From: Faecalibacterium longum CLA-AA-H243
Lineage (GTDB): Bacteria > Bacillota > Clostridia > Oscillospirales > Ruminococcaceae
DNA: 64,000 nucleotides
NCBI RefSeq assembly: GCF_020687245.1
Contig: NZ_JAJEQG010000012.1
Span: 1 to 64,000, forward strand
Direction: 5' to 3'
The notes below the pieces were generated by a model that saw nothing but the letters and a program-made list of their open reading frames with translations, was not told the origin of the DNA and searched no databases. The position numbers were made by a program, and so were the translations under genes. Within the stretch, counting starts at the first letter, position 1. Every line of letters begins with the position of its first letter. Shown here piece after piece: positions 40,058 through 56,734 of this stretch.

Positions 40058-40099
40058 AATTGCCCCCCAAAAACGGCTTTTCTGAGGGGGCAATTTTTT
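40058..40099 (+). terminator. G/C-run hairpin 2
   Basis: Stem 40058-40067 with 40086-40095, followed by T to 40099. Confidence 0.5.
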
Positions 40100-40297
40100 C
40101 CCGGGTATGGTACAGTACAACCAGAAAAAGTCCTGCGCCGGTGCAGAAAGCCTGTCGCTGTGCACAAAACGTGTCAACGGGCAACTGCGGATTCTATTCA
40201 TAAGGATAGCATAAGATGGAGCGGTCTGCAAGTGCAGAGAATACCAAAACCAGAGCCCCTTAAAAAGCAGAGGGGGACAAACAGAAAGGAGCACCCC

Positions 40298-40843
40298 ATG
40301 AAAAAGATGAATCGACGCGAATTCCTCACCCTTACCGGCGCAGCCGTTGTGGCGCTCTCGCTGGCAGGCTGCGGCGGCGGGTCCTCCGCACCCGCCGCCC
40401 CCGCTACACCCAAAGACGCTAAAGTGCTGGAAGCACTCAACCTCTACCGTGGAAAGCTGTCCCCGCTTACGCTGGATAGCGGCCTGAATAAAGCAGCAGA
40501 AGAAGTGGCGAAGATCATTCTGTCGAACAAACCACTCGGTGAAAGCGAGGATGCATTTGCTGAAGCTCACAAGGCAATACTTGGCTACAAAAATGCGGAA
40601 CTGTACCAGCCGATCGGCCTGTCTATGAACGAGGTGAGCGAGGGCACATATAAGGCTGCCCCGAGATACGTATGCCAGGACGATGCAAAGCTGATGGGAG
40701 AACAGCTGATGGCCCAAACGGGCGATCCTGCTCTGGAACAGCTGAAATCGCCTTTGGTCACGCTGGTGGGCATCCATGTGTTCGAGTACGGCAGTGCAAC
40801 CTACTGGGTCGCAGTCGTTGCCGAGGGAGGGAAGACCGCCTGA
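40298..40843 (+). CDS. CAP/SCP-like lipoprotein
   Basis: A 181-residue lipoprotein: signal with twin basic residues (MKKMNRREFLTLTGA), lipobox SLAGC with Cys23, a short Ala/Pro linker, then a domain beginning LEALNLYRGKLSPLTLDSGLN and ending FEYGSATYWVAVVAEGG. This order resembles a CAP (SCP/allergen V5) fold, with the N-terminal helix and the final strand recognisable but no clear His/Glu site. First gene of a 15-kb plus-strand run. The ribosome binding site context from 40281 is identical to that before the truncated gene at 55538. Confidence 0.7.
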   Translation: MKKMNRREFLTLTGAAVVALSLAGCGGGSSAPAAPATPKDAKVLEALNLYRGKLSPLTLDSGLNKAAEEVAKIILSNKPLGESEDAFAEAHKAILGYKNAELYQPIGLSMNEVSEGTYKAAPRYVCQDDAKLMGEQLMAQTGDPALEQLKSPLVTLVGIHVFEYGSATYWVAVVAEGGKTA

Positions 40844-40878
40844 GCACAGCGGCCCCGCTGATACGGACACCCCCTTTT

Positions 40879-40913
40879 GCCCCGGGCACACTCCCCCTGT
40901 GCCCGGGGCTTTA
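40879..40913 (+). terminator. Hairpin/attenuator between the first two lipoprotein genes
   Basis: Perfect 12-base GC stem (GCCCCGGGCACA 40879-40890, TGTGCCCGGGGC 40898-40909) followed by TTTA only. It may set a lower transcript level for the downstream genes. Confidence 0.65.
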
Positions 40914-40930
40914 TCGAAAGGAGCACCCCC

Positions 40931-42487
40931 ATGAAACACAAATGTTTTGCTGCTGTGGTTCTGGCGGCGGCTCTCTGGCTGACCGGCTGCGGCGGCGCAG
41001 CTGCCCCCGCGGCCCCCACAGGCCCCAGCGCCGCTGCCGACCAAAGCTCCGGCGCAGCTTCCCAAAGCGCCGCAGCCGCAGCGGTGCAGACGGCCCAGAA
41101 GGAGCGCATCACCGACCAGTACACGCTGGAAAAGAACGTTTCGGGCGTGTGGGGAGAGGACACGGTGCAGTACATTTCCGTCCATGTGCCCAAGCTGGAA
41201 TGCGACAGCCCGGACGCCGCCTCCATCAACGAGGAGCTGAACGCCATCTATGCAGCGGATTTCCGGGAGTTCGAGGCCTACGAGGAGGCCGGGCAGCCGG
41301 ACGGCGATGCCCCGCTGATCGGCGTGGGCTGGGATGACTGGTGGTACGGCGACTGCGTCAGCCTGGTGGTGCGCAGCCGCTATGGCGGCACCGCCCCGTG
41401 GTTTTACAACGGCTGGTGCTTCGATTTTGCCACCGGCAGGCAGCTCACTGTGGCCGAGATGCTGCAGCGGATGGGTCTGGACCCGGACACCGTGCAGCAG
41501 CAGATGCAGCGGCAGGCCATGCAGACCTTTGACCGGGAGATGGCGCAGGGCGCATATTACGAGAGTTGGCGTCTCGACGGAGAACTGTCGCAAATGCGGA
41601 TGGACACGCTGGAATACAATGAACTGGAAAACCTTTGCCTGCTTTTGCCGGAGCAAAATCAGCTGGTGATTCGGGGCAGATACAGCTCCGCGTCCGAAGA
41701 GAGATGGCAGCAGCTGGATATGGAGATCCCGCTGCAGACCGCTGCCCAGCCGCAGGCGCAGCCGGTGCTGACTGACACCTTCGACGGCGTGCAGGTGCAG
41801 CTGAAGGGAATGCAGGCCACCATCACCGTGAGCCCTGCACCCAAGACCGCCACCTGGAACACCGAGCTCAACCTCCGGCTGGAGCAGGCGCGCACCTACC
41901 CGATCCTTGGCTCTTACAATGAATATGTGGACGTGTGCATCGGTCAGCAGACCGACTCGGTCTTCCACCCGGTGGTCTATCTGCTGACCAAAGACGGCGT
42001 GGTGGAGTATGTAGATGTGCTGCGCTGCCTTCTGTTCGGAAACGCCATGATCTGTCAGGACCCCATCTACATTGCCAACAACGGCGTGTCGCTGGAGCGC
42101 AGCGGCAATAGCAAGGTGAACCTGCGCCGGAAGGATGGCTCTGTGTTGGAGCTGGCTGACCTGTCGTCAGAGTGGAGCGTGCAGGATATCCCTTATTCCA
42201 TCACCGGCTCCTTCAACTGCACCAACGGAAACTGGCTGGAGCTTAGCAGCGACGGCAGCGTTCAGCTGGGCGTGCAGAACAACAGCCGCATCGATCAGGG
42301 CGACGCAGCGTATCTGGGCGTGGTGCCGGAGGGCATGGTGCTGGCCATCTTTACCGACACGGGGCTCGACTTTGTGGCGGCGTTCAAGATGGACCTGTAC
42401 GACAACCTGACCATGACCATGATCGACGGGCAGAACCCCTTTGCCGAGGGCGAGACCCAGCTGCAAATGACCCGCAGCTACGACTGA
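40931..42487 (+). CDS. DUF3298/RsiV-like lipoprotein, paralog 1
   Basis: A 518-residue lipoprotein (MKHKCFAAVVLAAALWLTGC, Cys20). After an Ala/Ser linker comes a domain beginning YTLEKNV...ISVHVPKLECDSPDA, with WWYGDCVSLVVRSRYGG and WCFDFATGRQLTVAEML, the pattern of the DUF4163/DUF3298 proteins such as RsiV and PdaC ectodomains, which in RsiV bind lysozyme. The C-terminal 200 residues carry YVDVCIG...FHPVVYLLTKDGVVEYVD and a beta-rich tail. Start chosen at ATG 40931 behind AAAGGAG. Two paralogs follow in tandem. Ligand unknown. Confidence 0.8.
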   Translation: MKHKCFAAVVLAAALWLTGCGGAAAPAAPTGPSAAADQSSGAASQSAAAAAVQTAQKERITDQYTLEKNVSGVWGEDTVQYISVHVPKLECDSPDAASINEELNAIYAADFREFEAYEEAGQPDGDAPLIGVGWDDWWYGDCVSLVVRSRYGGTAPWFYNGWCFDFATGRQLTVAEMLQRMGLDPDTVQQQMQRQAMQTFDREMAQGAYYESWRLDGELSQMRMDTLEYNELENLCLLLPEQNQLVIRGRYSSASEERWQQLDMEIPLQTAAQPQAQPVLTDTFDGVQVQLKGMQATITVSPAPKTATWNTELNLRLEQARTYPILGSYNEYVDVCIGQQTDSVFHPVVYLLTKDGVVEYVDVLRCLLFGNAMICQDPIYIANNGVSLERSGNSKVNLRRKDGSVLELADLSSEWSVQDIPYSITGSFNCTNGNWLELSSDGSVQLGVQNNSRIDQGDAAYLGVVPEGMVLAIFTDTGLDFVAAFKMDLYDNLTMTMIDGQNPFAEGETQLQMTRSYD

Positions 42488-42505
42488 GAATACAGGAGAA
42501 CGACC

Positions 42506-44056
42506 ATGAAACACAAACGCCTTACCGCGCTGGTGCTGGCTGCCGCGCTGGTGCTGGCCGGGTGCGGCGGCACAAAAAGCAGCTCCGGCTCTGCTGCCGC
42601 CAGCCAGAGCACCGGCAGCAGCCAGAATGCCCCGGCGATTGCCGTTCAAAAGGAACGTATCATGGAGCAATTCACGCTGGAAAAAACCGTCCGGGACGAG
42701 TACGGCATCACCCAGAAGCTGACCATCCATGTGCCGCAGCTTGTGTGCGACAGCCCGGATGCTGAATATATCAATAATGAGCTTGCCGCCATGTATGCGG
42801 CGGAATATCGGGATTATGAAAGCTACCCGCAGGCTGAGGTGTCGCAGGACGAATGGTGCCCGCAGACCTACATCGATTGGGACGCCTACTGGTACGGCGA
42901 CTGCGTAAGCCTTGTGGTGAGAAGCTACTACGGCGGTACAGACCCCATCTATTCTCAGGGCTGGTGCTTCGATTTTGCCGCCGGGCATAAGCTTTCGGTC
43001 ACCGAGCTGCTCATGCGCATGGGACTGGACCCGGACGAGACGCAGCTTGCAGTGTACCGCGCCGCCATACAGACCTTTGACCGCAAGATGGTGCAGCAGG
43101 AATATTACGATTCCCTGCGGGAAAGCGGCATGCTTTCCGGGATGCGCGCCGATACCCTGCGGGACAACGGGCTGGAAAACCTGACCGTGCTGCTGAAAAA
43201 CGAAAATACCGTCACCCTTGTTGCCGGATACCACACTACCGCCGGCAGCGGCTGGCGGCCGCTGGAGGTGGAGCTTCCGCTGACCCCCGCCGCCCCTGCC
43301 AAAACGCCGGTGCTTACCGATACCTACGGAAGCGTTTCGGTGCTGCTGGACGGCGACATCCGCACCGTTACCATCAAACACACCCCCGAGATCATCGCAT
43401 GGGCAGAGGATTATGATATCCGTCTGGACGGCGATGTCACTCTGCCCATCCGCAACGCCTATAATAATTATGTAGATGTGTGCATCGGTGAGCTGGGCGC
43501 GTCCTTCCATCCCGTAGTCTACCTGCTTACCGAGGACGGTTTTGTGGAGTACGTGGATGTGCTGCGCTGCCTGCTGTATGGGCAGATTCTGCTCTGTGCC
43601 GACCCCATCTATATTGCCAACAACGGCACTGCGCTGGCGCTGCGGGACGCCGAGGTCAGCCTGCTGTGTGCAGACGGTACGGAAACAGAGCTTGCCCCCC
43701 TGACCGCTGAGTGGAACAGCCCGCAGCAGGTAGATTCCACCGGCAGCTTCAGCCTTGGGGAAGGGGAGAACTGGTGCTGGCTGGACCTGAATTCAGGCGG
43801 CGGCTGCCAGCTGGCTACCCACAACAACCGCTATTTCTATCAGGGTGCTGTCACCTATCTGGGCGCTACCCCGGACGGCACCGCGCTGGGCTTCTCTCTT
43901 ATCCGCGACACCGAAAACGGCCCGGAATGGGTTGCGTTCAGCGCTGCATTGAAGCTTGATTATCGCATTGATTGCCTGATCCTTACCCCCCTGAGCGGGC
44001 AGAACCCCTTGACGAACGAAACGGTCCCGCTGGTGCTGACCCACAGCTACGGCTGA
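42506..44056 (+). CDS. DUF3298/RsiV-like lipoprotein, paralog 2
   Basis: A 516-residue lipoprotein (signal MKHKRLTALVLAAALVLAGC, Cys20), colinear with paralog 1 over its whole length: FTLEKTV, WYGDCVSLVVRSYYGG, WCFDFAAGHKLSVTELL, and later VDVCIGELGASFHPVVYLLT and IYIANNGTALA. It starts 18 bases after paralog 1 and is probably translated from the same mRNA. The beta-rich C-terminal half differs more than the N-terminal half, as expected if the distal part determines specificity. Confidence 0.8.
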   Translation: MKHKRLTALVLAAALVLAGCGGTKSSSGSAAASQSTGSSQNAPAIAVQKERIMEQFTLEKTVRDEYGITQKLTIHVPQLVCDSPDAEYINNELAAMYAAEYRDYESYPQAEVSQDEWCPQTYIDWDAYWYGDCVSLVVRSYYGGTDPIYSQGWCFDFAAGHKLSVTELLMRMGLDPDETQLAVYRAAIQTFDRKMVQQEYYDSLRESGMLSGMRADTLRDNGLENLTVLLKNENTVTLVAGYHTTAGSGWRPLEVELPLTPAAPAKTPVLTDTYGSVSVLLDGDIRTVTIKHTPEIIAWAEDYDIRLDGDVTLPIRNAYNNYVDVCIGELGASFHPVVYLLTEDGFVEYVDVLRCLLYGQILLCADPIYIANNGTALALRDAEVSLLCADGTETELAPLTAEWNSPQQVDSTGSFSLGEGENWCWLDLNSGGGCQLATHNNRYFYQGAVTYLGATPDGTALGFSLIRDTENGPEWVAFSAALKLDYRIDCLILTPLSGQNPLTNETVPLVLTHSYG

Positions 44057-44077
44057 TAAACGAGCAGGAGGTGCAAG

Positions 44078-45634
44078 ATGAAACACCTGGCACTGTGCGG
44101 CGCGCTGGCGGCTTTGCTGGCGGCGCTGCTGGCGGGCTGCGGGGCAAAGACCGCAGCCTCTGCCCGCCCGGCTGGCCGCCGGGAGCTGAAATCGCCCCCG
44201 CCTGATTCCATGCACGCCACCGCGGCGATCGCCGAGCAGTACACCCTTGAAAAGGTGGTGCAGGCAGAAAACGGCGGCAAGGTCCGACTGAACATCCATC
44301 TGCCCCGGCTGGAAAGCGACAGCGCCGATGCTGCCCGCATCAACGCCGAGGTCGCCCGGTACTACGAATACGATGTGCAGGAGTACGTAGGCTGCCCGGC
44401 GGCGGCCGACCCGGCCGTGTGGGATTTCAGCATTGAAATGAACTGGGAAGCAAGCTGGTATGACGATTGTGTCAGCCTTGTGGTCAGCAGCTGCTACGGC
44501 GGTACGGATGCGCCCTTCCACAATGGCTGGTGCTTCGACTTTGAAAGTGGAAACCAGCTGACCGTCACCCAGATGCTGCAGCGCATGGGGGCAGACCCCG
44601 CTGCGCTGGAAGAGTCGCTTTACCGCGACGTGAAGCGCCGGGATGAGCTGGACCGTCAAGCCGCCATTGAGAGAGGACTGCTGCCCACCGGCAGTCTGAA
44701 AGAGGGAAACACCGCATGGTGGACTTCGCTGGACGAGCTGCCCTTTTCGCTGGACGAATCGGGGAACATTTCCTTCGTGGTCCACAGGTTCAGCGCGTCC
44801 GGGGAAGAGTATGTGAGCGATGTCCCGGTCATCCCACTGGCCGCGCAGCCGCTGCCGCAGGACTGGGAGCAGCAGGTGCTGGCCGAGTGGATGGCAGTCA
44901 CGGCGGTGACGCAGGGTGAAAGCTATGCCCCCGCCGACCGCAACGAAAGCTGCACCCTGCGGCTGGAAAAGGCCGAGATCACCGGCACGGTGACCGTCTC
45001 CTTCATCCGGGAAACATACGTCAGCCCGCAGATCCAGTCCGCTGCCGAGACCCGCACCGGAGAGCTGAATGCCGGCGCTGTGACCGGCTGGGACGGGGAA
45101 AAAAGTCAGGGCTGGAACCTGACATGCCTCAGCGAGGACGGCAGAAGCCGCTGGATCATCTCGATGATGGAGGACGGTTCGCTGCGGATGCAGTCCACCG
45201 GCCTCAAAAAGGGCAGTGAGGTCTGGTACGTTTTTCAACGCACCGAGGCATGGGACGACATCGGCTACACCGCCATTCCCCGCAGGCTGTGGGGAACATA
45301 CCGCGCCGGAGACGAGTCCGCAAAGGGTATCCGCTGGATGACCTTCCTGCCGGACGGCAGCTGCTGTATGAGCGTGGAATGGGACGGGTGGAGCGGCATT
45401 CTGACCGGCACCGCAGAGGGAACACAGGGCCGCACCGAGGACGGCACCGAGCTGCATTTTACATTGACCGATCAGAACGGCAAGCCGTGCGAGTTCTGGG
45501 CCATTCTGCTGAACGATGACGGCAGCCCCAGCGGCTGCAGCCTGAAATACCGCGCCGGAGAAGTGCTGTTTGACCGGGATACGCGTCCCATTTACTGGAA
45601 AAACGACTCTCCGAATCTAACCCCTGTACCGTGA
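44078..45634 (+). CDS. DUF3298/RsiV-like lipoprotein, paralog 3 with a different C-terminal domain
   Basis: A 518-residue lipoprotein (MKHLALCGALAALLAALLAGC, Cys21). The N-terminal part matches the other two (YTLEKVV, WYDDCVSLVVSSCYGG, WCFDFESGNQLTVTQML). From about residue 290 the match ends: the last 200 residues (RLWGTYRAGD, WMTFLPDGSC, YRAGEVLFDRD) form a lipocalin-like beta domain instead of the VYLLT/IYIANNG part. So the run contains the same head on two kinds of tail. It starts 22 bases after paralog 2. Confidence 0.78.
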   Translation: MKHLALCGALAALLAALLAGCGAKTAASARPAGRRELKSPPPDSMHATAAIAEQYTLEKVVQAENGGKVRLNIHLPRLESDSADAARINAEVARYYEYDVQEYVGCPAAADPAVWDFSIEMNWEASWYDDCVSLVVSSCYGGTDAPFHNGWCFDFESGNQLTVTQMLQRMGADPAALEESLYRDVKRRDELDRQAAIERGLLPTGSLKEGNTAWWTSLDELPFSLDESGNISFVVHRFSASGEEYVSDVPVIPLAAQPLPQDWEQQVLAEWMAVTAVTQGESYAPADRNESCTLRLEKAEITGTVTVSFIRETYVSPQIQSAAETRTGELNAGAVTGWDGEKSQGWNLTCLSEDGRSRWIISMMEDGSLRMQSTGLKKGSEVWYVFQRTEAWDDIGYTAIPRRLWGTYRAGDESAKGIRWMTFLPDGSCCMSVEWDGWSGILTGTAEGTQGRTEDGTELHFTLTDQNGKPCEFWAILLNDDGSPSGCSLKYRAGEVLFDRDTRPIYWKNDSPNLTPVP

Positions 45635-45704
45635 TCGAAACCGAACGCAATGCGATGACAAAGCGTTGTCGCTTACACCAAACAAATAACAGGAGGAAAT
45701 TACT

Positions 45705-47141
45705 ATGGGTCTTATCAAAGCAGGTATGGGCGCACTGGGCGGAACCCTTGCAGACCAGTGGAAGGAATTTTTCTACTGCGATTCTCTGGACAAGGATGTG
45801 CTGATGGTCAAGGGCCAGAAGCGCACCTCCCGCCGCAGCTCCAACAACGGCGAGGACAACATCATCACCAACGGCAGCGGCATCGCCGTGGCAGACGGAC
45901 AGTGCATGCTCATCGCGGAGCAGGGCCGCGTGGTGGAGGTGTGCGCTGAGCCGGGCGAGTTCACCTTCGATGCTTCTACCGAGCCAAGCGTTTTTACCGG
46001 CAACTTCGGCGACAGTCTGGCGGAAACATTCCAGACCGTGGCTAAGCGCTTTACTTACGGCGGCGACACCGGCAAGGATCAGCGCGTGTACTACATCAAC
46101 ACCAAGGAGCTGGGCGAGATCCTGTACGGCACCGCCACCCCCATCCCCTTCCGGGTGGTGGTCAGCGAGGAGCGGGGCTACAAGCTCTCGGTGAACCTGC
46201 GGTGCAACGGCAGCTTCACCTGCCGCATCTGCGACCCGCTGCTGTTCTACACCAACGTGTGCAGCAACGTCTCCACCCAGTATGACGCATCCGAGATCGC
46301 ACCCCGGCTGAAGAGCGAGCTGATGAACGCCCTGCAGCCCGCTCTGGCCACCCTTTCGGCCAACAAGGTGCAGTATTACGAGATTCCCGCCCACACGCTG
46401 GAGATCTCCGAGGCGCTCAACGAGCAGCTGTCCAGCGTCTGGCGCAAAAAGCGCGGCATTGAAGTGTTCTCCTTCAACATCAACTCCCTGTCCATCCCGG
46501 AGGAGCAGCAGAAGAAGATCACCGAGTGGGAAGAGAATGCCATGACCACCGATCCCACCACCGCTGCCGCCCGTCTGGTGGGTGGTCAGATCGACGCCAT
46601 GAAGACCGCCGCCGGCAACACCGCCGGTGCCATGACCGGCTTTATGGGCATGGGCATGGCAGCCGGTGCAGGCGGCATGGGCGGCATGAGCGCCCAGAAC
46701 CTGTTCGCTATGGGCCAGCAGGCGCGTCCGGACAGCGTGGACGCGCCCCAGCAGGTCAGCCGTCCCGCACCCGCCCCGGCGGACAGCTGGCAGTGCAGCT
46801 GCGGCGCTACCGTTACCGGCAAATTCTGCCCGGAATGCGGCAGCAAAAAGCCGGAGCCGAAGCCCGCTGCGGACAGCTGGACCTGCAGCTGCGGTGCCAC
46901 CGTCACCGGCAAGTTCTGCCCGGAGTGCAGCAAGCCCCGCCCGGCGGCAGCAGAAGGCTGGAAGTGCAGCTGCGGCGCAGTGAACAAGGGTCGCTTCTGC
47001 TCCGAGTGCGGCAAACCAAAGCCCGCCGGTACGCCCAAGTATAAGTGCGACAAGTGCGGCTGGGAGCCGGAAGACCCTGCTCACCCGCCCAAGTTCTGCC
47101 CGGAGTGCGGCGACCCCTTTGACGACAGCGACCGGACCTGA
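45705..47141 (+). CDS. SPFH-domain protein with four C-terminal zinc ribbons
   Basis: A 478-residue cytoplasmic-face membrane-associated protein. Residues 1-300 form an SPFH/Band 7 domain of the YdjI ('virion core protein'-like) type: MGLIKAGMGALGGTLADQW, then VMVKG, ITNGSGIAVADGQCML and, at the end, a glycine/methionine-rich GAMTGFMGMGMAAGAGG helix region. Residues about 365-470 hold four zinc ribbons, three with CSCG...FCPEC or FCSEC spacing and the last CDKCGW...FCPECG. The first two ribbons are nearly identical and look like an internal duplication. In Bacillus the YdjI relatives work with YdjG and YdjH at the membrane. AGGAGG before ATG. Confidence 0.85.
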   Translation: MGLIKAGMGALGGTLADQWKEFFYCDSLDKDVLMVKGQKRTSRRSSNNGEDNIITNGSGIAVADGQCMLIAEQGRVVEVCAEPGEFTFDASTEPSVFTGNFGDSLAETFQTVAKRFTYGGDTGKDQRVYYINTKELGEILYGTATPIPFRVVVSEERGYKLSVNLRCNGSFTCRICDPLLFYTNVCSNVSTQYDASEIAPRLKSELMNALQPALATLSANKVQYYEIPAHTLEISEALNEQLSSVWRKKRGIEVFSFNINSLSIPEEQQKKITEWEENAMTTDPTTAAARLVGGQIDAMKTAAGNTAGAMTGFMGMGMAAGAGGMGGMSAQNLFAMGQQARPDSVDAPQQVSRPAPAPADSWQCSCGATVTGKFCPECGSKKPEPKPAADSWTCSCGATVTGKFCPECSKPRPAAAEGWKCSCGAVNKGRFCSECGKPKPAGTPKYKCDKCGWEPEDPAHPPKFCPECGDPFDDSDRT

Positions 47142-47170
47142 TAAACAGCAAACATGGAAAGGAGCATACC

Positions 47171-48037
47171 ATGATGGGATTCTTCTCCAATTTATTCGCA
47201 AAACAGAACTGTGCGGTCTGCGGCAAGGAGTGCGGCACCCTGCACCGCTCCAAGCTCCGGGACGGACAGTTCCTCTGCGACGACTGTGGCAACAAGTGCT
47301 CCAAATATATCCGGCTCAGTGAGCTGACGCTGGACGAAGCAAAGGAGCACATGGAGTACATGGCCCGGATGAAGCGGGTATTCGACGAGGTGTTCGACAA
47401 GACCGGGTTCCGGGTCAACGCATACCCCTCCACCCCAACGCAAATGGGGCTGGTGTTCTGCGATGAGCTTGGAATGCTGTACATCGACGACCGCACCGGC
47501 GGCCGGGGCAAGATGCCGGAGCTGATCCGCTACGACCAGATCGCCAGCTATGAGGAGTATCTGGACGAGACCCCCGCCAAGGAGCCGGGCCAGAAACCCA
47601 CCCTCAACGGCGGCGGCCTGAAGCTGAAGCTGGTGCAGCCCCGCGGCATTACCGAGGCAGAGACCAGACGGGGTCTGCATCCCCACCCCTACATCAAGCA
47701 GGAACTGGTGATCTGCTTCAGCAAGCGGGACCGGCGGGAAATCGGCTATGCCCACATCGCACGGCAGCATCTGGACCACATCTTCGGGGTCCACGACAAT
47801 GAGACCAGCATGTTCGGCCGCCGGATGTCCAAGGCCGAGGAACGGGAGCTGAAGGGCCAGATGGGCATGATCGGTGCCATGGGTGCCGTGGCATCTGCCG
47901 CCATGAAGGGCGGGCAGCTCTCTGAGCAGGAAAAGGCCCGGTTCGTGGAGAACATCAATCTGGCAAACGACGCCCAGACCGGCGGCATGGCATTGTACAG
48001 CCGCCGTGCTGACGAAGCCTTTGCAAAAGTGCAGTGA
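47171..48037 (+). CDS. DUF4428-domain protein
   Basis: A 288-residue soluble protein. The N-terminal 50 residues are a DUF4428 zinc-binding module (CAVCGKECGTLHRSKLRDG, CDDCGNKCSKY). The remainder has a helical segment and a beta-rich part (GLVFCDELGMLYIDDRTGG) common to such proteins in Firmicutes. Its C terminus is a methionine/alanine-rich helix (GMIGAMGAVASAAMKGG), like that of the upstream SPFH protein, hinting that the two may contact each other. It starts 30 bases after the SPFH gene behind GAAAGGAG. Function unknown. Confidence 0.75.
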   Translation: MMGFFSNLFAKQNCAVCGKECGTLHRSKLRDGQFLCDDCGNKCSKYIRLSELTLDEAKEHMEYMARMKRVFDEVFDKTGFRVNAYPSTPTQMGLVFCDELGMLYIDDRTGGRGKMPELIRYDQIASYEEYLDETPAKEPGQKPTLNGGGLKLKLVQPRGITEAETRRGLHPHPYIKQELVICFSKRDRREIGYAHIARQHLDHIFGVHDNETSMFGRRMSKAEERELKGQMGMIGAMGAVASAAMKGGQLSEQEKARFVENINLANDAQTGGMALYSRRADEAFAKVQ

Positions 48038-48057
48038 CCCCAAAAGGAGGAACGGAT

Positions 48058-49149
48058 ATGAGAAAGATCCAGCGCAGAGATTTCCTCAAGGCCATGGGCC
48101 TTGCCACCGCCGCCCTCGGGCTGACCGCCTGCGGCGGCTCCGGTGCCGCCAGCGCTTCCAGCGTTTCCAGCGCACCGGCTTCCGGCAGCAGTGCCCCGTC
48201 CGCTTCGGCACAGCCGGAATCAGCAGAGGACAAAGCCGCCCCTGCAGGGCCCCCTGTGACCCAGTTCCAGACCGGGGAACTGAAGATCGGCGATTACACC
48301 TTCAAGGCGCAGTACATCCCCTTTGACGTCCGCCGGGAACTGGACGGAGCGCATCACTGCATCCATGCGGACAGCTACCGGGGCAATTACTTCTTCAGCT
48401 TCTACAACGAGGACGATGAAGAGCAGTCTGCCAAGATTTTCGAGTATGCCATCAAGGACGACCGGCTGACCCCGGTGGCAGAGTACAACATTGACGGCAG
48501 AAACGCCCTCAGCATCGACCGCAATGGCATCCTCTATGCCATGGACACCTTTGACGTCTACTGCTACGATCTGAACGGCAGTGACCCGGAGGAGCCCAGC
48601 GACGCGCTGGACTACATGGGCAGCTGCTATTCCTCCAAGGACCGGGACCTGACCGTGATCTACTGGACCGACTCCGCACCGGTGCTGGTGCAGGACGGCG
48701 AGTACACCGAGCTGACGCTGGAGGGCGATAACGAGATCGGCCCCTTCTGCAGCATGCCCTCCCTGAACCTCAGCGGGGACGAGCTGCTGACGGTGGGCGA
48801 GCTGGATTCCGGCGGCGATTACTACCTTGCCGCCTTTGATCTGGACGGCAATGAGCTGGCCCGCAGCACGCAGCCGGTGGGCAATTTTGACGCCGTGATG
48901 ATGAAGCGCCCCAACGGCTATCTGCTGGACACGGGCTATGTATGGGAGCTGTACGCGCCGGACGGCACATTTTTGGAAAAGTCCCTCCCCGTGGGCGAGC
49001 GCGAGACCCTGTGCCAGCTGTGCGGAGAGTTCTGCACCTTTGATGTCTTCCTGCCGCTGGAGGAAAACGCTTTCCTGGCAGTGGGTCACTACGGCAAAGC
49101 CACCGAGCCGGACGAGCCGGTGGTGTTCCGCATCACCACGGACTTCTGA
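48058..49149 (+). CDS. Tat-type lipoprotein with a beta-propeller-like body
   Basis: A 363-residue lipoprotein. The signal has a twin-arginine-like start (MRKIQRRDFLKAMG) and the lipobox TAC at about Cys25. An Ala/Ser linker precedes a beta-rich body with repeated blade-like units such as DGRNALSIDRNGILYAMDTF, YYLAAFDLDGNEL and WELYAPDGTF. No catalytic motif is seen. It could be an envelope-side scaffold or ligand-binding protein. ATG 48058 lies behind AAAAGGAGG. Confidence 0.72.
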   Translation: MRKIQRRDFLKAMGLATAALGLTACGGSGAASASSVSSAPASGSSAPSASAQPESAEDKAAPAGPPVTQFQTGELKIGDYTFKAQYIPFDVRRELDGAHHCIHADSYRGNYFFSFYNEDDEEQSAKIFEYAIKDDRLTPVAEYNIDGRNALSIDRNGILYAMDTFDVYCYDLNGSDPEEPSDALDYMGSCYSSKDRDLTVIYWTDSAPVLVQDGEYTELTLEGDNEIGPFCSMPSLNLSGDELLTVGELDSGGDYYLAAFDLDGNELARSTQPVGNFDAVMMKRPNGYLLDTGYVWELYAPDGTFLEKSLPVGERETLCQLCGEFCTFDVFLPLEENAFLAVGHYGKATEPDEPVVFRITTDF

Positions 49150-49238
49150 GCCGACCGCTTCGGCGGGGAGACCAACACAAAAACAGCGGGGCCGGGGAAG
49201 AGCCCCCGGCTCCCTTTGAAACAACAGGAGGAAACGCT

Positions 49239-50330
49239 ATGGCAGGAATGCTGGAATACAAGTGCCCCTGCTGCGATGGCGCCATCCAGTTTGACAGCGC
49301 CACCCAGAAGATGAAATGCCCCTACTGCGACACCGAGTTTGACGTGGATACCCTCAAGGGCTACGACGAGGAGCTGAAGGACGAAAAGCCCAGCGAGATG
49401 GAGTGGGCCACCCCCGGCGGCAGCTGGGCAGAAGGGGAGACCGCCGGTCTGCATACTTACAGCTGCAAGAGTTGCGGCGGCGAGATCGTGGGCGATGACA
49501 CCATGGCCGCGTCCGCCTGCCCCTTCTGCGGCAACCCCATCGTCCTCACCGGACAGTTTGCCGGGACGCTGCGGCCCGACCTCATCATCCCCTTTAAGCT
49601 GGACAAAAAGGCCGCCAAGGCAAAGCTGCAGGAGCATCTCAAGGGCAAGACCCTGCTGCCCCGGGTGTTCCGCAGCCAGAACCACATCGACGAGATCAAG
49701 GGCGTGTATGTGCCCTTCTGGCTCTTCGACAGCGACGCCGATGCTCAGCTGCGGTTCACCGCCACCCGGACCCGCTGCTGGTCGGACAGCAAATACGACT
49801 ATACCGAGACCAACTACTACTCCGTCCGGCGGGACGGCACACTGGGTTTTGACGCAGTGCCGGTGGACGGCTCGTCCAAGATCGAGGACGACCTGATGGA
49901 ATCCATCGAGCCCTTCGCCATGCAGGACGCCATCCCGTTCCAGACCGCCTATCTGGCCGGCTATGTGGCAGACAAATACGATGTGAGCGCCGAGGACAGC
50001 ATCGAGCGGGCCAACAAGCGCATCCGCCGCTCCACCGAGGAGACGTTCCAGCAGACCGTTACCGGCTACGACTCGGTCAAGGTGGAAAGCAGCAGTATCC
50101 AGTTGCACGGCGGCAAGGCAAAGTACGCCCTGTTCCCGGTCTGGCTGCTGAGCACCAGCTGGCGGGGCGAAAACTACCTGTTTGCCATGAATGGTCAGAC
50201 CGGCAGATTCGTGGGTGACCTGCCCGTGGACAAGGGCGCTGCCCGCAAGTGGATGCTGGGTCTTACGGCTGCCCTTTCCGCCGCGTCCTACGGCGTGATG
50301 TGGCTGCTGTGGCTGGCACGGATCCTGTAA
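49239..50330 (+). CDS. Zinc-ribbon membrane protein (YdjG-like)
   Basis: A 363-residue protein. Two zinc ribbons are at the N terminus: CPCCDG...CPYCDTEF near residues 10-30 and CKSCGG...CPFCGNP near 75-100. The middle (LIIPFKLDKKAAKAKLQEHL, VPFWLFDSDADAQL) is the conserved domain of TFIIB-type zinc-ribbon proteins that are often misnamed as PriA. One membrane helix at the very end (LTAALSAASYGVMWLLWLAR) anchors it. It resembles YdjG of Bacillus and is followed after 14 bases by a TPM protein, as ydjG is by ydjH. Confidence 0.8.
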   Translation: MAGMLEYKCPCCDGAIQFDSATQKMKCPYCDTEFDVDTLKGYDEELKDEKPSEMEWATPGGSWAEGETAGLHTYSCKSCGGEIVGDDTMAASACPFCGNPIVLTGQFAGTLRPDLIIPFKLDKKAAKAKLQEHLKGKTLLPRVFRSQNHIDEIKGVYVPFWLFDSDADAQLRFTATRTRCWSDSKYDYTETNYYSVRRDGTLGFDAVPVDGSSKIEDDLMESIEPFAMQDAIPFQTAYLAGYVADKYDVSAEDSIERANKRIRRSTEETFQQTVTGYDSVKVESSSIQLHGGKAKYALFPVWLLSTSWRGENYLFAMNGQTGRFVGDLPVDKGAARKWMLGLTAALSAASYGVMWLLWLARIL

Positions 50331-50344
50331 AGGAGGGACGAACG

Positions 50345-51193
50345 ATGAAAAAGACTTCCAACCGACTGCACTCCCTCTTTGCGGCGCTGGCAGCACTGGT
50401 CCTTGCGGCGGCGCTGGCTGTTCCGGCCTTTGCGGTAGAGGGCGGCTTTGCCGACCTGTACTACCGCATGTTCGACGACGCTGAGGTGCTGACCGAGGAC
50501 GAGGACAACGAGCTGGAGGACGCACTGGAAGAGCTGAGCCTGCGCCAGAGCTTCGATGTGACCATTGCCACCATCGAGTCGATGGAAAGCGTTGGTGCCG
50601 ACAGCATGGAGCAGTTTGCCGATGATCTGTATGACTACTGCCAGTACGGCTACGGCCCCGATATGGACGGCGTGCTTCTGCTGGTGAGCGTGGGCGACCG
50701 CAAGTGGCACATCTCCACCTGCGGCTACGGTATCACCGCCTTTACGGATGCCGGCATCCAGTACCTTGGCCAGCAGATGACCCCCTTCATGGCCGATGGA
50801 GATTACGCCGGTGCATTCCGCACCTTTGTCCAGTGGTCGGATACCTACATCGACGCTGCCCGGGAGGGCCACCCCTATGACGTGAATAACCTGCCCCGGG
50901 AGCCGCTGTCTCTCATGTACCTGTTCCTTGCGCTGGGCATCGGCCTTGTGCTGGCATGGGTCGTCGTCAGCGTAATGAAAAGCCAGCTGCGCAGCGTGGC
51001 GTTCCAGGAGAACGCCGCCAGCTATGTGCGGGAGGGCAGCATGAATCTGACCAACAGCCGGGAGCTGTTCCTGTACCGGGATGTGCAGCGCACGGAGCAT
51101 GTGGAGGAAAAGGACTCCGACAGCTCCGGCGGCAGCTCCACCCACACCTCCTCCAGCGGCACGACCCACGGCGGCGGAGGCGGTTCGTTCTGA
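50345..51193 (+). CDS. TPM-domain membrane protein (YdjH-like)
   Basis: A 282-residue protein. Signal peptide (LFAALAALVLAAALAVPAFA) and an extracytoplasmic TPM domain (DDAEVLTEDEDNELEDALEE, then DGVLLLVSVGDRKWHIST), a membrane helix near residue 190 (YLFLALGIGLVLAWVVVSV) and a Ser/Gly-rich tail ending GGGGGSF, which is the usual ending of this family. In Bacillus the TPM protein YdjH is encoded beside YdjG and YdjI and connects the membrane to PspA-type proteins. No pspA homologue is in this run. Confidence 0.85.
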   Translation: MKKTSNRLHSLFAALAALVLAAALAVPAFAVEGGFADLYYRMFDDAEVLTEDEDNELEDALEELSLRQSFDVTIATIESMESVGADSMEQFADDLYDYCQYGYGPDMDGVLLLVSVGDRKWHISTCGYGITAFTDAGIQYLGQQMTPFMADGDYAGAFRTFVQWSDTYIDAAREGHPYDVNNLPREPLSLMYLFLALGIGLVLAWVVVSVMKSQLRSVAFQENAASYVREGSMNLTNSRELFLYRDVQRTEHVEEKDSDSSGGSSTHTSSSGTTHGGGGGSF

Positions 51194-51206
51194 AAGGAGC
51201 ATGTTT

Positions 51207-51638
51207 ATGAACCCTTATCTTTCGGAAAAAGCCCGCGGCGAGATCCCCCGTTTCCTCAAATGGCTGCGGAACGCAGGGCTTGCCTTCTGCGTGTTCTGCT
51301 CTGTCGGCGGGCTGTATACCCTTTGCCTGAGTTTGCAGGATAAGGACTATTCCCACATCGGAGGCTATGTGTTCTGGATCGTGGTGGGCGCTGTGCCCCT
51401 CGCGCTGTTTGCCCGCGGGGAGGCCCGCCGCTACCATGCAAGAACCATCGCCCGCAGGGTGGAGAGCTACTCCGGGGCAGAAGTACCCCTGCGGTGGCTG
51501 TGCAACAGCGTTGGTATGGACACAAAGGACATTGCATGGTATTTTGAAAACGGCTATTTTGCAAACCTCAGTCTGGATCTGAACCAGAAGATCGTCCGCA
51601 GGCGGACCGTGCCCCGCCATGACCCGAACCGGAGCTGA
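51207..51638 (+). CDS. Small membrane protein, possibly XpaC/PCI-like
   Basis: A 143-residue protein with two membrane helices (LAFCVFCSVGGLYTLCLS and YVFWIVVGAVPLALFA) and a cytoplasmic C-terminal domain (SVGMDTKDIAWYFENGYFAN) resembling the short winged-helix-like tail of XpaC/PCI-type proteins. ATG 51207 has the right distance from AAAGGAG at 51193-51199; ATG 51201 is too close. It starts 14 bases after the TPM gene. Function unknown. Confidence 0.65.
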   Translation: MNPYLSEKARGEIPRFLKWLRNAGLAFCVFCSVGGLYTLCLSLQDKDYSHIGGYVFWIVVGAVPLALFARGEARRYHARTIARRVESYSGAEVPLRWLCNSVGMDTKDIAWYFENGYFANLSLDLNQKIVRRRTVPRHDPNRS

Positions 51639-51672
51639 ACCCTTTACGGCTGAAACAGAAAGGAGTATTTTC

Positions 51673-52218
51673 ATGGGACTTTTTGATAAGATGAAGCAGG
51701 CCACGGCTGCCACCGGCGGCAACCAGACCGTCACCTTTACCTTTCAGGCTCTGCCGGAAAGCCTTGCCCAGATGCAGGCGCTGCCGGAAGCAAGCCTTGA
51801 CACCCCCTTCAAGACTGCAGCCCTCACCGTCTGTGCGCTGTGCGCCTACGGTGCCGACAAGAACATCGGAAAGGAAATGCTCAACTGGCTGCGCGGCCCC
51901 CGTCCGCTGAACGGGCAGGATATCTCCTTTTTGAACGACCGCTTCCGGGACGGCAAGAGCTACATCCCCTTCTCCTACTTTGTGGGTGCATCGCCGGAAA
52001 ATGGCTATACCCCCCGCCAGCCCTTCACCCTGCTGGTGGGCAGTGACCACACCTCCAACACCGAGGAGGGCTACTGCAAACTGTTCATCCCCTGCGGCGG
52101 TGCCGATGACCCCCGCCCCATCAAGCTGCGCCGCAAGGGCAACGGGCAGTGGTTTCTGTGGGAGCAGTACCTGATGACCGGTATCCGCATCCCGACATCG
52201 GCCGACCCGTGGGCGTAA
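51673..52218 (+). CDS. DUF6935-like protein
   Basis: A 181-residue soluble protein beginning MGLFDKMKQATAATGGN, matching a small family (DUF6935) of unknown function found near SPFH and zinc-ribbon genes. It contains FTFQALPESLAQMQALPEAS at residues 22-41 and a beta-rich C-terminal half with PFTLLVGSDHTSNTEEGY and a WFLWEQYL end. Start chosen at 51673 behind AAAGGAG. The family label is from memory of the pattern and not certain. Confidence 0.6.
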   Translation: MGLFDKMKQATAATGGNQTVTFTFQALPESLAQMQALPEASLDTPFKTAALTVCALCAYGADKNIGKEMLNWLRGPRPLNGQDISFLNDRFRDGKSYIPFSYFVGASPENGYTPRQPFTLLVGSDHTSNTEEGYCKLFIPCGGADDPRPIKLRRKGNGQWFLWEQYLMTGIRIPTSADPWA

Positions 52219-52234
52219 GATGAAGGGCGTGACC

Positions 52235-52840
52235 ATGAAGCTGTTTGCCGCCGCGCTGGCGTTGACACTGGGGCTTGCGGGCTGCGGACCGGTGGACGGC
52301 GACCCCATCCGCTCCGGCGCGTCCGCCCCGGACAGCGTCCCCCGGCAGGACGCTGTGACCGTGGCGCAGCTGCGGCAGCAGGCAGAGCAGAACGGCAGCC
52401 TTGCCGTGGTGCTCTATCTGGGCAGTGTCCCGGAGCGCACCACCGATGTGGACGCTGCGCTGGACAGCTTACCGGAACAGCCGTGGCAGTTTGTTACGGA
52501 CATCCCGGCAGACCGCTGGGTCACAGCGCCGGGCGGCGGGCGCGAGCTGTACTGCATCTTTGCCGTGCGCAGGGAGGATACGCTTTTTGTCTATGAGAAA
52601 CAGGACCCCGCGTATCCCGCGCAGCTGGGGAAAGAACTTTACGGCAGGCAGGGTGGCCAGCCCATTCTGCTGCTGTGCAACGGCACCCCTGACACCCCCG
52701 ATATCACGGCGGTGGTCTACTGCACCACCGGCCGCACGCTGGACTGGTCGCCCCAGTTTTCCGCCGAGACCGACAGCCCTGTGCCGGTGGAGGGCGTGGA
52801 CGTTTTTTCCAACCACCCAACGCCCGGCGCTGCCCTCTGA
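52235..52840 (+). CDS. Lipoprotein, short member of a paralog pair
   Basis: A 201-residue lipoprotein (MKLFAAALALTLGLAGC, Cys17). The body (VVLYLGSVPERTTDVDAALD, GRELYCIFAVRRED, GGQPILLLCN) matches the N-terminal half of the next gene. It lacks the 150-residue C-terminal extension of that paralog. Start is either ATG 52220 or ATG 52235; the latter gives a cleaner signal sequence, with GAAGGG at 52221-52226. Function unknown. Confidence 0.7.
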   Translation: MKLFAAALALTLGLAGCGPVDGDPIRSGASAPDSVPRQDAVTVAQLRQQAEQNGSLAVVLYLGSVPERTTDVDAALDSLPEQPWQFVTDIPADRWVTAPGGGRELYCIFAVRREDTLFVYEKQDPAYPAQLGKELYGRQGGQPILLLCNGTPDTPDITAVVYCTTGRTLDWSPQFSAETDSPVPVEGVDVFSNHPTPGAAL

Positions 52841-52875
52841 GGTGCGCCCCGGCAGGGCATGAGAAAGGAGAACTT

Positions 52876-53940
52876 ATGAAACGACTGAAACTTCTGGCAG
52901 CCCTGCTGGCGCTGACCATCGGTCTGGCGGGCTGCGGCAAAGGCAGCAGCGCGTCCAGCTCCAAGCCCGAAAAAATGCTGGACGGAGACAACATGATCGC
53001 ATCGCCCTCCGCCAAACAGGAGTACACCGAGCCGGAGGACGTGACCTACATGCGCCTTCTGGCAGGGGAGGACGAATACCGCGCCTGCGTGCTGTATCTG
53101 GGCGGCTCCTACGAGATCACCACCGATGTGCAGCAGGTGCTGGACAGCCAGACCGACCTGCGGGAGCTGTGGGGCTTCGTCTACGACATCCCGCAGGATC
53201 ACTGGGTCGTGGCACCGGATGGCGGGTGCGACCTGTACTGCATCTTCCCGCAGGAGGCGCAGGCCACCCTGTCCGTCTACGAGACGAGCCTGACAGACGA
53301 TGCCGAAAAACCGCTCCAGCGCGGTAAACAGCTCTATTACAGTGAGGACGGTCAGCCCATCCTGCTGCTGTGCAACATCAGCGATATCGTCCCCAACACC
53401 GAGGTGGAGCTGTACCCCAGCACCGGCGAAGAGCTGGTATTCAGCCCCTTCCTTTCCGGCGAGAACGGCCATGTGGTGCAGGCAGACGGCGTGTGCGACT
53501 TTACCATCTACCCGGAAGGGGACGACTGGGAGACCGATACCAGCCCCTGGTCGTTAGAGGGCAACTGGCTGGAGATCTACCGCGACACCGACGAGGGCGT
53601 TTTTGACACTGACCCCGCAGACGCCGACCGGATGTGCTTTTTGCCCACCGACGCCGACACCGAAGGCAGCCAGCTGCCCTTCACCGCCAGCTACATCACC
53701 CCCTACCCGGAGCTGAACGTGGAGGAAGCCGACCTGTTCTATCAGGAAGGCACCCCGGAGGTGCCCTTCCAGTCTAATCAGGAGTGGTACGCTACCTTTA
53801 CCGGGGAGGACGGCTCCCGCTACGCCGTCACCCTGGAGGACGAGAACACCCTTGCCCTGAAGTTCTATCTGGACGGCGAAGAGAGCTACATGAGCCTTGT
53901 CAATACGGTCTACTTTGCGCGGCAGGAGGCCATGGGCTGA
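52876..53940 (+). CDS. Lipoprotein, long member of a paralog pair
   Basis: A 354-residue lipoprotein (MKRLKLLAALLALTIGLAGC, Cys20). The first 190 residues match the preceding gene (CVLYLGGSYEITTDVQQVLD, CDLYCIFPQEAQAT, GQPILLLCN). The C-terminal part (GNWLEIYRDTDEG, ASYITPYPELNVEEADLFYQ, ATFTGEDGSRYAVTLEDEN) is a lipocalin-like beta domain, comparable in layout to the tail of DUF3298 paralog 3. AAAGGAGA before ATG 52876. The last residues sit 32 bases before the nucleotidase gene. Confidence 0.72.
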   Translation: MKRLKLLAALLALTIGLAGCGKGSSASSSKPEKMLDGDNMIASPSAKQEYTEPEDVTYMRLLAGEDEYRACVLYLGGSYEITTDVQQVLDSQTDLRELWGFVYDIPQDHWVVAPDGGCDLYCIFPQEAQATLSVYETSLTDDAEKPLQRGKQLYYSEDGQPILLLCNISDIVPNTEVELYPSTGEELVFSPFLSGENGHVVQADGVCDFTIYPEGDDWETDTSPWSLEGNWLEIYRDTDEGVFDTDPADADRMCFLPTDADTEGSQLPFTASYITPYPELNVEEADLFYQEGTPEVPFQSNQEWYATFTGEDGSRYAVTLEDENTLALKFYLDGEESYMSLVNTVYFARQEAMG

Positions 53941-53972
53941 CCGCTGCCGACCCACACCGGGAGGAATGCACC

Positions 53973-55460
53973 ATGAAACACACCAAAAAGATCACCATCC
54001 TCCACTCCAATGATCTGCACGGAGACTTTCTGGCAGAGCAGGTGGACGAAAAACTGGTGGGCGGCGTTTCCATGCTGTCCGGCTACATCGAAAAGGTGAG
54101 GGCAGAGGAGCCCAACACCATCTACGCCATTGCAGGTGATATGTTCCGGGGCTCGGTCATTGATTCCGAATACAAAGGGCTTTCCACCATCGAGATCATG
54201 AACGCCCTTGCCCCGGACGTGGTTACCATCGGCAACCACGAGGTGGATTACGGCATCGCGCATCTGCTGTTCATCGAAAAATGCGCGCGCTTTCCCATCA
54301 TCAACGCCAACCTCTACATCAAAAACACCCCCACCCGGCTGTTTACTCCCTACAAGATCCTGCGGGTGGACGGCATGAACATCCTCTTCATCGGCATCAT
54401 CACCCAGGACGTCATCAACCAGACCAAGTCCGAATCTCTGGTGGGGTCCTTTGTGGACACCGCCGCAGCTGCCGCCGAGGTGGGCAAGATCTGCAACGCC
54501 CACAACAGCATCGACATCGATTTTACCGTGCTGCTGACCCACATCGGCTTTGAGGAGGACCGCCATCTGGCCCGCCAGCTGGACCCGGCCTGGGGGGTGG
54601 ACCTGATCATCGGCGGGCACAGCCACACCCTGCCAGAGCACGCGGTGGAGGAAAACGGCGTGGTCATTGCGCAGGCGGGCACCGGCACCGACCAGATCGG
54701 CCGCTTTGACATCATTGTGGACACGGACAACAACTGCATCGATTCCTACACATGGCACACGGTGCCCATCACCGCCGAGACTTGCCCCCGCAACCCCGCC
54801 ATGGAGCAGGTGCTACACCGCTTCACCAGTCAGGTGGACGAAAAGTACAGCCACATCGTGGCGCGCTTCCGCCGGGAGCTGACCCACCCGGAGCGCACCC
54901 GGGAGACTGAGCTTGGCAACCTGTTTGCGGACATCTTCACCCGCAGCCTTGGCATCGATATTATGCTCATCGGCTCCGGCAGCATCCGGGCCGAAAAGCT
55001 GGGCCCCATTGTCACCTACGGCGACCTCATCGAGGGTTTCCCCTACGACGACGGCGTGTTTATGTTCAAGGTGACAGGCCGGCAGCTGCGCCAGATGCTC
55101 CACTACATGCTGCGAGAGGAGGCCTACACCGGCCACACCGAGTTCTACCAGCTGCCCTCCACCCTGCGGCTGCACTACGACCGCGCCAAGGGCGACTTTG
55201 ATTACTTTACCTACTGCGGCAAGGAGGTGGGCAAGGAGATCGGCGACGATGCCTTGTTCACCGTGGGGCTGCAGAACTACCACTTCAAAAACATCGAGAG
55301 CTTTTTCAACATCTCCTACGATACCATCTGCAAGCTCCAGAAGCCCCGCAGCGTGGCAACCTCCTGTCAGGATGTCCTGATGGAGTATTTCCGGGAGCAC
55401 GAGATGGTGGACGCCGCCGTAGACGGCAGAATGACCATTCTGCCCCCTGCCGGGCAATGA
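53973..55460 (+). CDS. 5'-nucleotidase/metallophosphatase without signal peptide
   Basis: A 495-residue calcineurin-like phosphatase plus 5'-nucleotidase C-terminal domain. Metal motifs are complete: LHSNDLHGD near residue 11, GDMFRGS near 57, GNHEVDYG near 88, HIGFEEDRHLA near 190 and GGHSHT near 215. The C-terminal domain carries ADIFTRSLGID and FPYDDGVFMFKVTG. Unlike UshA relatives there is no signal peptide or membrane helix, so it should act in the cytoplasm, on nucleotides or cyclic nucleotides. Start at ATG 53973 (MKHTKKITIL) behind GGGAGGA; a longer frame to 53784 overlaps the lipoprotein gene and is unlikely. Confidence 0.85.
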   Translation: MKHTKKITILHSNDLHGDFLAEQVDEKLVGGVSMLSGYIEKVRAEEPNTIYAIAGDMFRGSVIDSEYKGLSTIEIMNALAPDVVTIGNHEVDYGIAHLLFIEKCARFPIINANLYIKNTPTRLFTPYKILRVDGMNILFIGIITQDVINQTKSESLVGSFVDTAAAAAEVGKICNAHNSIDIDFTVLLTHIGFEEDRHLARQLDPAWGVDLIIGGHSHTLPEHAVEENGVVIAQAGTGTDQIGRFDIIVDTDNNCIDSYTWHTVPITAETCPRNPAMEQVLHRFTSQVDEKYSHIVARFRRELTHPERTRETELGNLFADIFTRSLGIDIMLIGSGSIRAEKLGPIVTYGDLIEGFPYDDGVFMFKVTGRQLRQMLHYMLREEAYTGHTEFYQLPSTLRLHYDRAKGDFDYFTYCGKEVGKEIGDDALFTVGLQNYHFKNIESFFNISYDTICKLQKPRSVATSCQDVLMEYFREHEMVDAAVDGRMTILPPAGQ

Positions 55461-55470
55461 CCACTTTTTT

Positions 55471-55494
55471 CGGGGGAAGCTGACGCTTCTCCCG
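55471..55494 (+). other. Hairpin after the nucleotidase gene
   Basis: Ten-base stem (55471-55480 with 55485-55494, one G-U pair) without a following T run. It may be an mRNA 3' stabiliser or a weak terminator. Confidence 0.4.
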
Positions 55495-55537
55495 AATGGG
55501 GCCCTGAAAAAAAATTTACCACAGAAAGGAGCACCCC

Positions 55538-55642: not shown

Positions 55643-55678
55643 CGGGTGGTTATAGCATCACCTCAATAGTATTGTATC

Positions 55679-56730: not shown

Positions 56731-56734
56731 AAAT

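Follow-up and report, generated by a model that had tools for sequence, protein, structure and literature searches.

A candidate regulated envelope-protection locus without PspA in Faecalibacterium longum

The window, a stretch of 64,000 nucleotides from the genome of Faecalibacterium longum CLA-AA-H243 (G000; G labels denote genomes and L labels the loci compared), carries a run of 14 plus-strand genes, g01 to g14, at 40298-55460. A sequence-only reading had described 14 genes on one strand with short gaps, and this holds; the successive gaps are 87, 18, 21, 70, 29, 20, 89, 14, 13, 34, 16, 35 and 32 bp, and a good ribosome-binding site precedes most of the genes. The relevant unit reaches left beyond g01, to 36977, and takes in two divergent, minus-strand genes that encode a solute-binding lipoprotein (SBP) and a transmembrane protein with a LuxR-type helix-turn-helix (HTH), here termed REG. 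We consider these genes together as a possible regulated system of the cell envelope. To our knowledge little has been established about how Faecalibacterium and other gut Clostridia protect the envelope, and discussion of YdjGHI-type genes generally includes PspA. The genes are as follows.

36977-38530, minus strand: REG, proposed regulator; two transmembrane segments (hydrophobic stretches 15-33 and 353-371), an outside domain and a C-terminal LuxR/GerE HTH (GerE 50.5 bits, cut-off 23.5)
38560-39891, minus strand: SBP, solute-binding lipoprotein, proposed ligand receptor feeding REG (SBP_bac_8 60.3 bits, cut-off 27)
40298-40843, plus strand: g01, lipoprotein with a twin-arginine-like signal and lipobox; single copy here, more in relatives (family alignment)
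40931-42487, plus strand: g02, lipoprotein, paralogue of g03 (49% identical)
42506-44056, plus strand: g03, lipoprotein with an RsiV/DUF3298-like predicted fold at residues 47-261
44078-45634, plus strand: g04, lipoprotein, more distant paralogue (29% identical to g03)
45705-47141, plus strand: g05, SPFH protein with C-terminal zinc ribbons, YdjI-like (Band_7_1 63.6 bits; six CxxC)
47171-48037, plus strand: g06, DUF4428 protein (45.2 bits, cut-off 27.8)
48058-49149, plus strand: g07, lipoprotein with a twin-arginine-like signal (TAT_signal_seq above cut-off); relatives lie beside core genes in L099 and L103
49239-50330, plus strand: g08, zinc-ribbon protein, YdjG-like (four CxxC; Pfam zinc-ribbon matches below cut-off)
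50345-51193, plus strand: g09, TPM-domain membrane protein, YdjH-like (TPM 99.9 bits; two hydrophobic stretches)
51207-51638, plus strand: g10, small membrane protein (two hydrophobic stretches)
51673-52218, plus strand: g11, DUF6935 protein (204 bits, cut-off 27)
52235-52840, plus strand: g12, lipoprotein with a g12/13-type domain (alternative start 52220; 47% identical to g13)
52876-53940, plus strand: g13, lipoprotein with a g12/13-type domain, which recurs in other families, and a C-terminal part
53973-55460, plus strand: g14, 5'-nucleotidase family enzyme, no signal peptide (Metallophos and 5_nucleotid_C above cut-off)

Pfam matches above cut-off bear out the SPFH, DUF4428, TPM, DUF6935 and nucleotidase labels that the sequence-only reading gave to g05, g06, g09, g11 and g14. 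The nucleotidase that it called cytoplasmic has no signal peptide. It counted eight secreted, lipid-anchored or membrane proteins where there are nine: seven with a lipobox, assigned by a simple rule (g01-g04, g07, g12 and g13), together with g09 and g10. The correspondence it drew with YdjI, YdjG and YdjH of Bacillus stands for g05, an SPFH protein with a zinc ribbon, and for g09, a TPM membrane protein. It is less secure for g08, in which the likeness lies in the four CxxC motifs; the zinc-ribbon matches are below cut-off, as is the C-terminal hydrophobic stretch, although several relatives pass the value of 1.6 used for such stretches. PspA had been described as missing and there is no PF04012 match anywhere in the window genome, the same search having matched nine of 14 control genomes. 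No Pfam family matched g10, or g01 when scanned from 40367. A possible resemblance of g01 to CAP/SCP-type proteins was discarded, the best PDB profile match (E 0.12) being to an unrelated protein.

A scan of 39800-57500 found 12 promoter-like sites compared to 5.8 in shuffles (standard deviation 2.0) and 20 terminator-like sites compared to 16.2 (standard deviation 5.0). Those on the plus strand inside the g01-g14 run are all located within genes. An Rfam search gave a tRNA as its sole match.

Of the 31 genomes compared in the genus, five (G000, G020, G022, G026 and G029) have the extended cluster, and its gene order does not differ among them. The trio of SPFH, zinc-ribbon and TPM proteins in the other four is 87-99% identical to that of the window; the g02/g03-type lipoproteins are approximately 50-77% identical and variable in number, and the number of g01-type genes varies also. 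A bare trio occurs at four further loci (G003, G005 and second loci of G022 and G026; 90-92%, 87-90% and 75% identical to the window). These four loci have no lipoproteins, so that the lipoproteins appear to be an optional layer and the extended locus a second, elaborated form beside the bare trio. Close homologues of g03, g06 and g13 are, within the genus, restricted to the extended locus. A different DUF4428 protein, 29% identical, is encoded in G008, and weak g03 matches (E 6e-4 to 1e-3) in six genomes cover mostly the N-terminal part. Six plasmid records hold relatives of the SPFH protein.

Might these be unrelated envelope genes that happen to have collected at a variable site, with REG governing only a part? 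The variable number and sequence of the lipoproteins and the existence of bare trios would fit such an explanation, and the gaps of 70-89 bp could hold promoters. We judge it distinctly improbable given that gene order is the same in five genomes, that the same types of component are present in other families and that separate operons share an operator motif. The latter two points are now considered.

Among 197 genomes of the order, DUF6935 is present in 42, DUF4428 in 28 (23 above cut-off) and a g05-type SPFH protein in at least 111 (E up to 1e-20). Linkage distances, here and for REG below, were read from match coordinates. DUF6935 is within 10 kb of SPFH in at least 17 of the 42 (G000, G051, G052, G056, G079, G089, G105, G108, G116, G119, G135, G142, G145, G146, G149, G156 and G182), the SPFH of G051 being a fragment; in the other 25 there is no SPFH inside 10 kb among the matches listed. 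Frames of 1035-1272 amino acids in G043:C12, G068:C52, G087:C172 and G186:C90 contain four or five DUF6935 copies in tandem. The locus L103 (G156) combines in one run DUF6935, SPFH, g12/13-type, DUF3298 lipoprotein (Pfam 28.7 bits, cut-off 24.1), g07-type lipoprotein, DUF4428, TPM and zinc-ribbon genes, interrupted by two further genes. In L074 (G043) a single lipoprotein fuses PdaC, DUF3298 and g12/13-type domains in the same run as a DUF4428 gene; L074, like L073, L050 and L064, helped to build the g12/13-type profile and its score against that profile is circular. The profile also matches proteins outside its building set (L088, L089, L122, L135, L098, L099 and L103). Gene calling in the relatives was crude, with several starts and some overlapping frames mis-called.

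This linkage in other families of the order indicates, at the level of sequence, that the trio, DUF4428, DUF6935, DUF3298-type and g12/13-type proteins belong together. The gene order kept in five of 31 genomes and the recurrence of the component types elsewhere also mean that the run is more than chance. Lipoprotein genes unlinked to the trio in relatives would have refuted the sequence-only reading; at the level of domain types in other families the linkage is there, L103 being the example, whilst the four bare trio loci of the genus count against the reading.

The lipoproteins g02-g04 had been called DUF3298-like. Sequence does not support this, with no Pfam DUF3298 match for any of the three, and their profile matched PDB sequences only over the signal-peptide stretch (E 0.0016), apart from weaker matches. 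The predicted structure does. The g03 model is confident for residues of approximately 45-260, of fair quality from there to about 350 and poor in the remainder, with a mean predicted local distance difference test score (pLDDT) of 59. Comparison of residues 47-261 with the PDB gives RsiV bound to lysozyme (5jen; Z 11.5, root-mean-square deviation 6.3, 188 residues), an uncharacterised protein (3cyg; Z 11.0) and the DUF3298 entries 4e72 (Z 9.3) and 3s5t (Z 8.4). The model therefore assigns this segment an RsiV/DUF3298-type fold, a fold which does not of itself imply lysozyme binding. Residues 266-373 returned only generic-looking structures. Kinship in sequence between g03 and the DUF3298 lipoprotein of L103 was rejected (BLASTP E 0.28, not significant), and the link rests on fold and Pfam. 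The g12/13-type domain is well predicted over approximately 50-213, yet the best PDB structure match has E 0.035, which we judge meaningless. A weak match relates g13 to L103:10948-11496 (E 1e-4 over 58 residues; profile E 9e-9). In L104 the region given the g12/13-type label is mostly signal peptide, and it was not counted.

The sequence-only reading pictured a membrane-surveillance complex with several outside binding proteins. It overlooked the divergent SBP and transmembrane LuxR pair just outside the run. That pair shifts the balance for the lipoproteins towards a role as outputs and away from one as main sensor; the latter idea was dropped, since SBP-REG shows the stronger conservation from one family to the next.

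Full-length REG occurs, among the 31 genomes of the genus, in exactly the five with the cluster. Fragments in G003, G005 and G025, the second of which also retains the SBP region at 80% DNA identity, suggest that the pair has been lost there. The GerE HTH scores above cut-off in all 12 members of REG set A8. Locus counts were made on the best 80 of 271 REG relatives. SBP lies directly upstream of REG in 73 of these, and in the remaining seven REG starts some 500 bases or less from a contig end, so that the pairing is found at 73 of 73 testable loci. At some other loci the position of REG is taken by a different membrane regulator; in L049 (G056) this is a HisKA_7TM-GerE protein, and in L103 and L104 there are multi-transmembrane proteins with ends that match the REG HTH.

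A core gene is present at 36 of the 80 loci when the g12/13-type domain is counted, and at 27 of the 38 loci with at least 8 kb upstream when it is excluded. Among the 197 genomes of the order REG is found in 13 (E up to 1e-25) and in nine of these it is no more than 9 kb from SPFH, DUF6935 or DUF4428.

The commonest divergent neighbour is a family of small zinc-ribbon proteins (median 120 amino acids, Zn_Ribbon_1 above cut-off, for example L137:7943-8302), with 58 genes at 32 of the 80 loci; none was seen in the cluster of the window. A family of 147 amino acids without a Pfam match (for example L172:7527-7970) is divergent to SBP at eight of the 80. SBP-REG pairs also occur at L139, L148, L153, L179, L183 and L190, attributed to Eggerthellales, Desulfovibrio, Eggerthellaceae, Treponema and Spirochaetaceae, all metagenome bins that are possibly misassigned.

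Is there a sequence through which REG might act? The SBP upstream regions of the relatives share a motif, TTTTCCYACCYTTTT-N5/6-TTTGGGKGGGGACAAAA-N13-TATAAT, on the strand of the divergent operon, that is a dyad followed some 13 nucleotides on by TATAAT. Judged by the spacing, the dyad is centred at approximately -45 and the -35 position falls within its right arm; LuxR-type activators have binding sites overlapping -35. The count used 65 of the 80 loci, near-identical ones included, leaving out seven without SBP (REG at a contig end) and eight with 200 bases or fewer upstream. A matrix scores above 11.9 bits in 50 of the 65 regions on which it was refined; of 650 shuffles three exceed this value (21.9, 14.1 and 12.9). 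Visual inspection of these regions gave a simpler seed pattern, which is present in 19 of the 65; the shuffle mean was 0.14. As a regular-expression scan gave only five sites the matrix was used instead.

When 2.56 Mb of locus DNA was scanned with the matrix, 72 sites scored above 24 bits, some loci being counted twice, and none did so on one strand of one shuffled copy. Butyricicoccus pullicaecorum DSM 23266, with two SBP-REG pairs, has a match to the operator matrix. Nine distinct sites are neither beside SBP nor part of the training set. Seven of them precede operons with DUF4428 and SPFH or zinc-ribbon/TPM genes (L049, L073, L122, L135, L137, L140 and L144) and two precede secreted-protein genes (L049 and L125). 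In G052 (L045 and L073) and in L122 an SPFH and DUF6935 operon is separate from a zinc-ribbon, TPM and DUF4428 operon and both have the same operator motif; L135 has the same two motifs, one ahead of a zinc-ribbon, TPM and DUF4428 operon. In L122 the operon divergent from SBP begins with a g14 homologue, and in G056 the motif occurs alongside the 7TM-type regulator. A strict pattern of the right half and -10 element had 12 matches in nine of the 197 whole genomes, six of them at motif loci. The reversed control pattern gave nine, so that matches away from known loci are background.

Two other dyads are present in the divergent intergenic region of the window.

39985-40017, unstranded: GC-rich dyad 1, unchanged in five genomes, without a match to the operator matrix of the relatives
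40058-40095, unstranded: GC-rich dyad 2, almost unchanged in five genomes, with a strong single-strand fold

These may be the local operators of this lineage, or something else.

On the basis of these observations we consider it somewhat probable that 36977-55460 represents one version, in this genome, of a regulated system by which Clostridia protect their envelope, in which SBP and REG would sense an outside ligand and switch on a PspA-free complex together with surface lipoproteins. Ligand-loaded SBP would dock on the outside domain of REG which, staying in the membrane, would bind the dyad and activate the operons. The SPFH, zinc-ribbon and TPM proteins may then assemble a YdjGHI-like, PspA-free platform at the inner membrane, whilst the RsiV-fold and g12/13-type lipoproteins would act outside, perhaps by binding attacking proteins or wall material. 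By analogy with B. subtilis, the likely output would be a membrane-protection platform without PspA, to which outward lipoproteins are added. More tentatively, and with confidence a little short of even, we propose a widespread and undescribed regulon of Clostridia, in which a lipid-anchored SBP gates a membrane-embedded LuxR-type factor acting on DNA from the membrane, and one dyad-promoter drives a PspA-independent SPFH-TPM-zinc-ribbon complex and surface lipoproteins, some with the RsiV fold.

Several observations weigh against these proposals. REG is unlinked to SPFH, DUF6935 or DUF4428 in four of the 13 genomes of the order (G096, where the match is at a contig end, G099, G179 and G209), 11 of the 38 longer REG loci have no core gene and the SPFH trio is often without REG, also within this genus. 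The outside domain of REG has no recognised family in the profile matches shown; the idea of a Cache domain was dropped, no Cache family being among those matches. The motif is absent from 15 of the 65 SBP regions, and the matrix was refined on the same regions that it scores, some near-identical. In the window itself the intergenic region has no matrix match (best 1.6 bits), and the strict pattern has none in G000. The evidence for regulation comes from the DNA of relatives and is extended to Faecalibacterium by extrapolation; the operator may have drifted to other GC-rich dyads in this genus.

What might SBP bind? Its PDB relatives are sugar and glycerol-3-phosphate-type binding proteins, which does not fix the ligand. 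They are compatible with a nutrient or surface-adaptation regulon, where SBP would sense a glycan or glycerophosphodiester as food or host cue, the operon would remodel the surface and SPFH and TPM would only help to assemble surface proteins. L045 encodes surface proteins with SLH, Ig or PLAT domains, and CuaD-CuaSR, a cellobiose sensor fed by a solute-binding protein in a Clostridium, offers a precedent (PMC10384115). We nonetheless regard this as rather unlikely, since conservation on the output side lies with SPFH, TPM and zinc-ribbon proteins and, judged by eye, no carbohydrate enzymes or importer permeases are prominent among families in at least five of the 80 loci. ABC permease genes were not noticed among the recurrent neighbours, again by eye and with no systematic search.

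The DNA to the right raises a further issue. At 57218-60677, 1.8 kb downstream, an AAA ATPase and an S8 protease match IetA (E 2e-69) and IetS (E 5e-38) in PADLOC and form a candidate anti-phage pair. In 55530-56550 the start of a long secreted-protein gene follows g14 and is broken off at about 35 codons; at the same place in G020, G022 and G026 the gene has at least 510 amino acids. The stretch 56325-56794 recurs at 95% in flanking DNA of G022. In L034 (G029) a full g14 (97% identical) is preceded by a partial g14-like frame (95 amino acids) and a 320-amino-acid gene, which we take to resemble a nucleoside hydrolase. Could the cluster be a phage- or bacteriocin-defence module? The nearby IetA/IetS pair, the patchy presence with remnants, and the fact that certain homologues of the SNIPE nuclease carry DUF4428 N-terminally (PMC13190303) would be consistent with this. 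It is very unlikely, in our view, as PADLOC matched none of six cluster proteins submitted and the IetAS neighbourhood is not common to G020, G022 and G026, which have the long secreted-protein gene after g14.

If the envelope-protection proposal is right a list of DUF genes becomes a testable circuit, with one SBP awaiting its ligand, one promoter and one gene set. The cluster suggests where roles for DUF4428 and DUF6935 may be sought, and it would place RsiV-fold lipoproteins where host lysozyme could be met.

How does the locus compare with known systems? The fold predicted for g03 47-261 is that of the lysozyme receptor RsiV (PMC5014341), but g03 is a lipoprotein with a C-terminal extension and no anti-sigma part was seen. 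CuaD-CuaSR of Ruminiclostridium cellulolyticum likewise encodes a solute-binding protein beside a membrane signalling system. CuaSR, however, is a two-component system controlling cellobiose import, whereas REG joins sensor and HTH in a single protein and the genes linked to it encode envelope proteins (PMC10384115). PspA-free neighbourhoods of PSP partners (Toastrack, PspC, HAAS-PadR; PMC11237479) also set envelope-stress partners beside regulators; in the part of that work considered here no TPM/SPFH set with an SBP-LuxR pair was found described. Nor did we find a publication joining SBP, LuxR and SPFH/TPM genes, in a search that mostly excluded subscription papers and wholly excluded preprints.

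The closest counterpart is the PspA-YdjGHI operon of Bacillus subtilis (PMC8581546, PMC11237479), since an SPFH protein with a C-terminal zinc ribbon, a zinc-ribbon membrane protein and a TPM protein are encoded together in both. In B. subtilis membrane localisation of YdjI depends on YdjG and YdjH, recruitment of PspA to the membrane requires YdjI, and membrane fluidity falls when YdjI is deleted (PMC8581546). Ravi et al. proposed that TPM and band-7 proteins serve the assembly of membrane-linked complexes (PMC11237479). The locus described here differs in that the window genome has no PspA match, in the gene order of SPFH, zinc-ribbon and TPM, and in the addition of the SBP-LuxR pair, the operator (in relatives), DUF4428, DUF6935 and lipoproteins. 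This PspA-free version of YdjGHI appears to own a regulator, a ligand-binding protein and, in relatives, an operator. Within the literature searched it is the attached SBP-REG-operator circuit that seems undescribed, the SPFH-TPM-zinc-ribbon complex being already known in kind.

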